The position numbers were made by a program, and so were the translations under genes. DNA of 52,755 bases from Candidatus Undinarchaeales archaeon (GTDB lineage Archaea > SpSt-1190 > JASMDC01). The notes under the pieces are model-generated. The model was given only the letters and a program-made list of their open reading frames with translations. It made no database searches and was not told the DNA's origin. The DNA lies in NCBI GenBank assembly GCA_030753015.1, contig JASMDC010000024.1, positions 1 to 52,755 of the forward strand, given 5' to 3'. Positions within the stretch are counted from its first letter, which is position 1, and each line of letters starts with the position of its first letter. Positions 44,942-47,172 of the stretch are shown here, piece by piece.

Positions 44942-45628
44942 GTGGAGGACACGGACAAGGCACGGGCCCGTATCTGTGCGGTGGTCGCCGCCGATACGGT
45001 CGAGGAGATGGTGGACCGGGCCATGGAGGCAAGAGAGGACGCCGACCTCGTTGAATTCCGTATCGACCATCTTGTCTCACTTGAGCAGCTTGAGGGACTG
45101 AAGGAGTTCACCGCTCTCCCAGTGATCCTCACCCTCCGCTCCGCTATCCAGGGCGGACGGAGCGAACTGGAAGGGGACGCACGTCGAGCGGTCCTGGAGC
45201 GCATCATAAACCTCGGCCCGGCGTACATCGACCTAGAGTTCGGTAATGCTGACATGGAGCTCATTGCCGTTGCCAAGTGCGCCGGTGTGGGCACTATCCT
45301 CTCATTCCACGACTTCGAGGGAACCCCAGAAGGGATCGCTGACGTTGCTCAGGTGATGGCGGCCACGGACGCCGACATCATCAAGCTGGTCACTACTGCC
45401 GGCTCATGGAGGGACGAGCTTACAATGCTAACCATTGATCAACGGTACACCGATCGGGGGATCGTTGCCTTCTGCATGGGCGAACTCGGAGTGCTCTCCC
45501 GCGTGCTCTGTCCACTCATAGGGGGTCGGTTCACCTATGCCTTCGCGGGCAGGAGCACTGCAAATGGCCAGATTTCGTTAATTGACCTACGTATTACATA
45601 TAATACTGTGCAAATTCATTACGAATAA
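44942..45628 (+). CDS. aroD: Type I 3-dehydroquinate dehydratase
   Basis: A 228-residue enzyme of the shikimate pathway that dehydrates 3-dehydroquinate. Motifs: DLVEFRIDHL at the start of the barrel, ILTLRS, ILSFHDFEGTP (catalytic His) and DIIKLVTTAGS (Schiff-base Lys), then FCMGELGVLSRV and FTYAFAGRSTANGQIS. GTG at 44942 is favoured: it fits the family's N-terminus and is about 25-30 nt from the TATA palindrome. It is the only aromatic-pathway gene in the window. Confidence 0.94.
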   Translation: MEDTDKARARICAVVAADTVEEMVDRAMEAREDADLVEFRIDHLVSLEQLEGLKEFTALPVILTLRSAIQGGRSELEGDARRAVLERIINLGPAYIDLEFGNADMELIAVAKCAGVGTILSFHDFEGTPEGIADVAQVMAATDADIIKLVTTAGSWRDELTMLTIDQRYTDRGIVAFCMGELGVLSRVLCPLIGGRFTYAFAGRSTANGQISLIDLRITYNTVQIHYE

Positions 45629-45657
45629 CGTAGGAGTATATACAATCCTACCGGAAG

Positions 45658-45666
45658 TTATATATA
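45658..45666 (+). promoter_or_regulatory. Strong TATA box upstream of structured leader and micro-genes
   Basis: TTATATATA preceded by the purine-rich GGAAG (BRE-like) is the best promoter in the 334-nt gap after aroD; start of transcription would be near 45690. A second TATA-like TATATTAG at 45723-45730 would place the start near 45750, just before the first hairpin. Confidence 0.6.
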
Positions 45667-45759
45667 CCATACCGTGCTAACTAATAGCATAATCATTCCC
45701 GGAGCAGGATAACATGACAGCGTATATTAGAGGAAAGGTATTGGTACCGACCTTTATTA

Positions 45760-45886
45760 TTGCGCGCAATCATGCCTGCATGCGCTGGTTGTAGCGCAAG
45801 GGGATGATGAAAACAACGCCGTGATTGTTTTTTGACCCTTTTCTTAAGTCGCTATGCGACTATCAGTCGTCCTCATCGCGGCGTTG
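45760..45886 (+). ncRNA. Structured leader or stand-alone RNA with competing hairpins
   Basis: Hairpin I: TTGCGC (45760-45765) with GCGCAA (45794-45799), extended by CAATCA (45767-45772) with TGGTTG (45786-45791). Stem II: CAACGCCGTGAT (45814-45825) with ATCGCGGCGTTG (45875-45886), 12 pairs with one G-U, enclosing AGTCGC-TAT-GCGACT (45847-45861). An alternative hairpin, AAAACAA (45810-45816) with TTGTTTT (45825-45831), shares bases with stem II and leads into six T, so it looks like a terminator that excludes stem II. The arrangement suggests an attenuator or riboswitch-like leader for the micro-genes, or an independent RNA. It does not match any RNA family I know. Confidence 0.5.
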
Positions 45887-45962
45887 GGGGCGCACGCGCC
45901 GATATCCGAACTCAACGAGATAACCGAGAGAACGACAAGGACGACACAAGGAGGTAATGACT

Positions 45963-46100
45963 ATGTCACTTGAAGAGACCATGGAACTGATCATAAACGT
46001 CATGCAATTCGCTGACTCGTGGGAGACCCGCCGCGCTCAGGCCCCTGAGGAACAGGCCAGTGCCCCGCTCTTCCTCGCGTACGAAGGCATGCTCTCCTGA
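45963..46100 (+). CDS. Micro-gene 1: 45-residue peptide, first of a tandem pair
   Basis: The peptide begins MSLEETMELIINVMQFAD and ends LFLAYEGMLS. A strong ribosome-binding site GGAGGT (45950-45955) is seven nt before ATG 45963; the in-frame ATG at 45957 is too close to it. It is 67 per cent identical (30 of 45) to the next gene, with the first 24 residues nearly invariant and a conserved LAYEG-x-L end around a variable middle. No cysteines, no membrane segment, acidic; probably an amphipathic helix, a linker and a conserved tail. It could be a regulatory peptide, an adaptor or a modified-peptide precursor; function unknown. Confidence 0.8.
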   Translation: MSLEETMELIINVMQFADSWETRRAQAPEEQASAPLFLAYEGMLS

Positions 46101-46138
46101 GCAAGCCCACACCATCAACCACACAAGAGGTGCAGATC

Positions 46139-46276
46139 ATGTCAATTGAAGAGACGATGGAGCTGATCATCGACGTAATGCAGTTCGCTGACTCATGGGA
46201 GACCCAGCGGTACGAAGAGAATGCGCCGATGGCCGAGACTCCCCTCCTACTCGCCTATGAGGGCTTCCTCACCTAG
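46139..46276 (+). CDS. Micro-gene 2: 45-residue paralogue of micro-gene 1
   Basis: The peptide begins MSIEETMELIIDVMQFAD and ends LLLAYEGFLT. It has exactly the same length as its neighbour, with conserved N-terminal 24 residues (three changes) and conserved end. Most differences in codons are synonymous or lie in the middle, which is what selection on the protein would leave. AAGAGGTG (46125-46132) about seven nt before the ATG at 46139 serves as ribosome-binding site. The 38-nt spacer from gene 1 suggests one transcript. A GC-rich hairpin follows after 15 nt. Confidence 0.8.
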   Translation: MSIEETMELIIDVMQFADSWETQRYEENAPMAETPLLLAYEGFLT

Positions 46277-46291
46277 GTGAGAAACATCAAT

Positions 46292-46333
46292 GTGCCGGGG
46301 CGGAACCCTTCCCTCCTTCCCCGCCCCGTGCAC
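46292..46333 (+). terminator. GC-rich hairpin after the micro-gene pair, with two more hairpins behind it
   Basis: GTGCCGGGGCGG (46292-46303) pairs with CCGCCCCG-T-GCAC (46321-46333), 12 pairs with one bulged T. GTGGTCC-GTG-GGACCAC (46344-46360) and CCGGGCC (46362-46368) with GGCCCGG (46386-46392) follow. None has a long T tract, so they may fold the 3' end of the micro-gene transcript rather than act as simple terminators. Confidence 0.5.
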
Positions 46334-46406
46334 TAACTCTACGGTGGTCCGTGGGACCACACCGGGCCGCCGCACCTCTTTCTTGGGCCCGGCCGGGCAC
46401 CGACCC

Positions 46407-46416
46407 TTTAATAAAG
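46407..46416 (+). promoter_or_regulatory. TATA box of the Cys-hairpin membrane protein gene
   Basis: TTTAATAAAG lies 25-34 nt before ATG 46441, the distance expected for a leaderless archaeal message; this supports 46441 as the start rather than an upstream codon. Confidence 0.65.
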
Positions 46417-46440: not shown

Positions 46441-47172
46441 ATGCATGAGGTGTCCAAGGTCGCCAGAGCTTGGCCAGTCGTGTTGACGGTGGTTGCACTC
46501 ATCCTCACCCTGGTAGCTGCAGATTCCGTCCTCGTTGAGTGCGAGGACCTGCAGGGACGTGAGCTCGACCATTGCGTCAGGGACGCTATCGCCACCATCC
46601 CACTCAACCTGTCCAAAGAGATGCTCGGCTCCTGCGTCACTGTCCAGGACGAGTACCTGAGGGCAGAGTGCACCGCTATCGTCGCCTATCGCCTCCTCCC
46701 ACACAATGCGAGCCGTGCGCTCGACGCGTGCAATTCCATCAAATCCGAAGCACATAGGAGCGCATGCCTCGGGCTCATAGCTGCTCGACGCGCAGAGAAC
46801 GATCCTGCCGTCGTCGCACAAGAAAGCGCACGGCTGCCATCGGATGAGGCCCGCATCTGGCTGGTGGCGCTCCTGCGCGACTACACCGACAGACATGGCG
46901 CTGCCAAAGGGCTCGAGCTGTGCGCTACCTTCGCCCCTAAGCTCCAGCGCTATTGTGTCGACCTCAGCGTATCCTGGCTGAACACGTCCCACGCCAACCT
47001 GTGCGAGGGCATCCAGTACTCGGACATCAAGCGACAATGCCAGGCCCGGACATCGGGGGACCTCCTGGCCGAATCACAAGCCGACGGTACGACATTCGCT
47101 GTATTCGTGCTCCTGATCGTCTCAGTAGGGACACTGGGGATCATGCACATCGAAGTGAAGCACTACTCCTGA
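46441..47172 (+). CDS. Membrane protein with five C-x10/11-C helical hairpin repeats
   Basis: A 243-residue protein with a signal-anchor helix (about 8-27) and a second transmembrane helix close to the C-terminus (about 213-233). Between them lie five repeats in which two cysteines are separated by 10 or 11 residues: CEDLQGRELDHC, CVTVQDEYLRAEC, CNSIKSEAHRSAC, CATFAPKLQRYC and CEGIQYSDIKRQC. The even spacing suggests alpha-hairpins each closed by a disulfide, facing outwards, and would need an oxidase such as the DsbA-like protein at 2373-2846. I do not recognise a named family. The gene follows the micro-genes with its own promoter and overlaps coaD by 10 bp at the 3' end. Confidence 0.78.
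   Translation: MHEVSKVARAWPVVLTVVALILTLVAADSVLVECEDLQGRELDHCVRDAIATIPLNLSKEMLGSCVTVQDEYLRAECTAIVAYRLLPHNASRALDACNSIKSEAHRSACLGLIAARRAENDPAVVAQESARLPSDEARIWLVALLRDYTDRHGAAKGLELCATFAPKLQRYCVDLSVSWLNTSHANLCEGIQYSDIKRQCQARTSGDLLAESQADGTTFAVFVLLIVSVGTLGIMHIEVKHYS

Follow-up and report, generated by a model that had tools for sequence, protein, structure and literature searches.

Two retained tandem paralogues of 45 residues lie downstream of a predicted structured RNA in an archaeal contig

Layout of the locus

We analyzed a 52,755-nucleotide stretch of an archaeal contig (hereafter, the window), in which an earlier note made from the letters alone had drawn attention to two tandem micro-genes of unknown family. 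As described there, both genes are exactly 138 bp, stop codon included, and pairwise comparison confirmed that their products are identical at 30 of 45 positions, with 95 of 135 bases the same in the genes. The near-constant beginning amounts to 21 identities among the first 24 residues, the ATG-encoded Met counted, and both products carry the LAYEG-x-L end. Good ribosome-binding sites had likewise been claimed; Shine-Dalgarno-like sites do precede both genes, although they are of unequal strength (Table 1). The DNA repeat starts at these sites and recurs at 176 nt, which indicates that the duplication copied the ribosome-binding site along with the gene, and a 79-nt duplicated stretch includes the GAGGTG site of micro-gene 2. 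The flanks contain neither a third copy nor a remnant, the best local score there (32) being close to the mean for shuffled sequence (31). A scan of the whole host genome (3.85 Mb, 117 contigs) found the AYEG-x-L pattern confined to these two genes, which are its only members of the family.

Table 1. Features of the micro-gene locus, in window coordinates
Feature	Position	Strand	Details
Probable TATA box of the micro-gene transcript	45657-45666	+	GTTATATATA; from sequence; predicted start near 45688
Structured RNA, predicted three-way junction	45692-45808	+	9-bp closing stem, long interrupted arm, short hairpin
A/U-rich hairpin with T run, terminator-like	45809-45833	+	High-probability predicted pairs; directly after three-way junction
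Second leader hairpin, GTCGTCC...GGACGAC	45865-45948	+	Whole-leader minimum free energy fold; ends just before Shine-Dalgarno site
Shine-Dalgarno site GGAGGT of micro-gene 1	45950-45955	+	From sequence; 7 nt before ATG1
Micro-gene 1	45963-46100	+	138 bp with stop, 45 aa; MSLEETMELIINVMQFADSWETRRAQAPEEQASAPLFLAYEGMLS
Shine-Dalgarno-like site GAGGTG of micro-gene 2	46127-46132	+	6 nt before ATG2; weaker than GGAGGT
Micro-gene 2	46139-46276	+	138 bp with stop, 45 aa; MSIEETMELIIDVMQFADSWETQRYEENAPMAETPLLLAYEGFLT
Hairpin spanning the end of micro-gene 2 and its stop codon	46250-46281	+	Predicted; z -5.65 for 46248-46372
Three G+C-rich hairpins, micro-gene 2 to next gene	46292-46404	+	Predicted fold

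Upstream of the pair lies aroD (44966-45628). Downstream is a gene for a 243-residue Cys-rich protein (46441-47172) that lacks a Pfam match, followed on the other strand by a coaD-like cytidylyltransferase-family gene. The 243-residue protein has hydrophobic segments at its N- and C-terminus and regularly spaced Cys pairs; its sequence suggests that it is probably an extracytoplasmic Cys-repeat protein. A Pfam scan of ten neighbors (42.8-51.6 kb) returned phosphoesterase, epimerase, DHquinase_I, cytidylyltransferase, subtilase, TrmB, DUF6282, and GATase matches, with two proteins unmatched. TATA-type promoters and neighbors such as TrmB, the type I DHquinase, and the archaeal-type pantetheine-phosphate adenylyltransferase lead us to read the host as an archaeon.

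Purifying selection and the search for relatives

Preserved ends around a variable center had been taken as a sign of selection on the peptides, and comparison of the two copies bears this out. The Nei-Gojobori method gave a dS of 1.18 and a dN of 0.25, hence a dN/dS of ~0.2 rather than a value near one, the dS of ~1.2 being imprecise because it rests on two sequences. Half of the 40 base differences (20) fall at the third codon position. By segment, dN/dS was ~0.07 in residues 1-24 and 0.17 in residues 35-45, and the center was saturated. When 40 differences were placed at random, 19.4 identical residues were expected (Met aside), against 29 observed, a number that 0 of 20,000 simulations reached. 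The same simulations located the excess: residues 2-24 hold 20 identities versus 15.3 expected (p = 0.00075), residues 35-45 hold 8 versus 5.4 (p = 0.024), and residues 25-34 hold 1 versus 0.8. Residues 2-24 and 35-45 are under purifying selection.

These data also weigh on the reading that the frames are open by chance, in non-coding DNA that was duplicated. The frames are short and homologues were not found, as such a reading would have it, but it leaves unexplained the synonymous bias that the simulations never matched, the preserved Shine-Dalgarno sites, and the equal lengths. Codon usage, too, favors both reading frames: with scores trained on long genes of the window itself, the micro-genes reached 10.8 and 15.1, against 3.3 and -14.1 for overlapping antisense ORFs. 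Chance frames, which we find barely credible, are already refuted as far as two sequences allow, and we are nearly certain that both micro-genes are real protein-coding genes. They are genuine, old, retained paralogues.

The center behaves differently from the ends. There, 0.64 of non-synonymous sites have changed, compared with 0.54-0.58 of synonymous sites in the flanks; divergence this close to that of the flanking synonymous sites means that diversifying selection need not be invoked. The earlier picture of a variable center between preserved ends therefore stands as far as divergence goes, with the qualification that the center evolves in a neutral-like manner. Its length is unchanged, at ten residues in both copies, and it resembles a linker free of constraint and not a core that has been diversified.

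This pattern is central to a further proposal, that the products are precursors of modified or secreted peptides. In a RiPP-like arrangement, a conserved, acidic 24-residue leader would precede a core that is cut and modified by enzymes encoded elsewhere in the genome. Graspetide, lanthipeptide, and other RiPP precursors are encoded by short genes, sometimes in tandem, and combine a conserved N-terminal with a variable part. Tandem precursor pairs are common in RiPP-type clusters, and the micro-genes, which also stand in tandem, match this outline with their conserved 24 N-terminal residues and the variable stretch that follows. They depart from it in that the C-terminus is conserved where a diversified core is expected (p as above for residues 35-45) and in that the variable part diverges in a neutral-like manner and resembles a linker. 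Cys and a double-Gly site are absent from both proteins, and the Pfam scan of the ten neighbors found no modification, transporter, or recognition-element gene; the one protease among them, the subtilase, is encoded on the opposite strand at a distance of 2 kb. The precursor proposal thus fared poorly, and we regard it as very unlikely.

A dS above 1 implies an old duplication, so orthologues would be expected in sister species. Neither protein matched a family in Pfam-A, NCBIfam, or PHROGs at E values up to 10. PDB sequences yielded no relative (the best match, AcrIF25 at E = 0.55, is at chance level), tblastn against phages and plasmids gave only chance matches at E = 3-9, and viral contigs contained no relative of the proteins. 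Across 85k species genomes, the short conserved patterns produced only two matches of 14-15 residues, which we take as chance. HMM and protein searches of ~740 other whole genomes gave chance-level matches only; among these genomes, relatives and members of the phylum gave one chance match (E = 0.14), and three other phyla (23, 151, and 115 genomes) gave none. A match at E = 0.006, covering 24 residues within a long frame in a set of 389 genomes, was rejected as within chance expectation over the 389.

The nearest genomes searched were nine that share only the host's class and are reduced (0.6-1.1 Mb), and aroD, the micro-genes' neighbor, also has no match in these nine. Because the class genomes are reduced and lack an aroD match, finding no relatives says little about the spread of the family in its own lineage. 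The absence of homologues anywhere, which the earlier note would have counted against the family, is therefore no refutation given how poorly the host lineage is sampled, and the 'orphan' status of the pair partly reflects this sampling. At the sequence level, the micro-genes make up a small family that is new and unnamed; as a kind, a lineage-restricted small protein that has a paralogue in tandem is ordinary. Separately, the host genome carries 5% contamination and is far larger than those of its class-mates; either its placement or the assignment of this contig to the bin would merit checking.

Predicted RNA structures around the gene pair

A folded leader had been described ahead of the genes, and prediction gave a stronger one than was then stated. 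If the TATA box in Table 1 belongs to the micro-genes, their leader is ~275 nt long; in several genes of the window, a TATA-like box stands just 30-40 nt ahead of the start codon, which implies short or no leaders. The segment that contains the three-way junction (45688-45812) has a minimum free energy of -50.4 (z = -5.68), with 0 of 200 shuffles as low, and among 500 random windows the only equally extreme one fell on the junction itself. The - strand of this segment reaches only -37.7, and the better fold on the + strand fits transcription of the RNA from that strand. For the whole leader, the fold gave z = -3.7. The full-transcript fold largely pairs both Shine-Dalgarno sites, but at 589 nt it is too unreliable to build on.

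On these models, the leader RNA could act in cis as a regulatory element or be an RNA in its own right, and the terminator-like hairpin may separate leader from micro-genes; a bacterial-type terminator scan did not call this hairpin. Were 45692-45833 a separate structured non-coding RNA gene, the micro-genes would be under another promoter. The junction begins a few bases past the predicted transcript start and runs at once into the hairpin with its T run, and possible internal A/T boxes occur at 45753 and 45839, all of which suits a separate gene. However, such a gene would have no Rfam family (across the whole window nothing matched at the gathering score, and the best hit near the micro-genes, at E = 0.12, was far below the cut-off), no second copy was found in the host genome, and a single-sequence model of low sensitivity found none in 194 other genomes. 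It would also leave the selection on the proteins unexplained and could be at most an added component. We consider a separate RNA gene unlikely.

The three hairpins reported after the micro-genes also appeared in prediction, at about 46292-46333, 46342-46373, and 46383-46404, together with one spanning the micro-gene 2 stop codon; the segment 46288-46410 alone gave a z of only -2.66. The stop-codon hairpin is stable and may constrain synonymous sites there. As for the earlier view of the locus as a dedicated, regulated peptide unit, a transcription unit of its own is favored by the TATA-like boxes here and at the next gene, where the box (46407-46415) lies ~30 nt before the start of the 243-residue protein gene. 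Regulation through the leader is something that we infer from the predicted fold.

Candidate functions and known counterparts

The two proteins, of 5.1 and 5.3 kDa, have calculated charges of -6.5 and -9.5 and a pI of ~4.05, and neither sequence shows an evident signal peptide or membrane segment. AlphaFold2, run on the two-row alignment, predicted a helix at residues 3-24 in both copies (block pLDDT 92-94 for residues 1-20), with low confidence in the C-terminal half (pLDDT ~60); copy 1 was modeled as helix-break-helix, and copy 2 as one continuous helix that is weak past the N-terminal helix. The N-terminal helix has an amphipathic moment of up to 0.5, and a broad hydrophobic face is part of what is conserved. 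An arrangement in which a tolerant linker connects a helix to another conserved, hydrophobic segment would be compatible with a helical hairpin or with a module that binds at two points.

DNA mimics commonly take the form of small, acidic, helical proteins, and the charge of the micro-gene products invites the idea of inhibitors that cover a basic surface or one at which nucleic acid binds, in anti-restriction or antitoxin-like fashion. The proteins encoded in the window are acidic in general, however (median pI 5.3), and the broad conserved hydrophobic face better suits protein binding. Pfam found no toxin, phage, or defense gene adjacent to the pair, PHROGs and phage genomes provided no match, and the similarity to AcrIF25 is of the chance level given above. 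Mimicry is, in our estimation, distinctly unlikely. A type II toxin-antitoxin pair was also considered and rejected, the products being paralogous to each other and not unlike partners; neither protein matched a toxin or antitoxin profile in Pfam or NCBIfam.

Our preferred reading, which we hold tentatively and at a little under an even chance, is that the locus encodes a pair of small cytosolic partner-binding regulators with their own promoter and a structured 5' RNA. The two-gene unit would produce anciently duplicated, acidic small proteins of the cytosol, in each of which an amphipathic N-terminal helix (residues 3-24) and a C-terminal PLxLAYEGxL segment would be joined by the tolerant 10-residue linker. 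The proteins would most likely act through their two conserved segments, which would bind a partner protein or assemble the two products into a hetero-oligomer, and this binding would tune how active an enzyme, transporter, or regulator is. Transcription would start at the pair's own promoter, behind the structured 5' RNA, which may set the amount of protein made. A peptide regulator or adaptor, as originally suggested, accordingly remains the best guess as to kind, with partner binding as its conjectural part; the aroD, epimerase, coaD-like, and subtilase neighbors provide no pointer to a binding partner. A bolder version, in which 45692-45833 represents a new class of archaeal cis-regulatory RNA that controls a new family of paired hetero-oligomer small regulatory proteins, strikes us as improbable. 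If the locus holds a surprise, it most likely lies in the leader RNA and not in the peptides.

To our knowledge, archaeal small proteins are under-annotated, and few have known partners. At this locus the duplication supplies the comparison by which selection can be demonstrated from a single genome, and the likely micro-gene transcript begins with an unusually strong predicted RNA fold. A regulatory role for the leader, if confirmed, would enlarge the short list of regulatory RNAs described in archaea; failing that, the locus adds one more lineage-restricted small protein family.

Among known systems, riboswitch-like leaders resemble the micro-gene leader in having a structured 5' region and a terminator-like hairpin ahead of an ORF; the micro-gene leader differs from them in having no Rfam match or homologues. 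For the proteins, the closest parallels are of kind, drawn without sequence comparison or claim of homology, and come from Methanosarcina mazei. MtrR (ORF16, 49 aa), archaeal and of similar size, oligomerizes and tunes an enzyme complex (PMC13370731); it is membrane-located, whereas the micro-gene proteins are probably cytosolic. The longer sP36 (61 aa) is likewise an archaeal small protein that acts via partners, binding GlnK1 and AmtB1, and differs in its role, which is in ammonium transport (PMC10714827).
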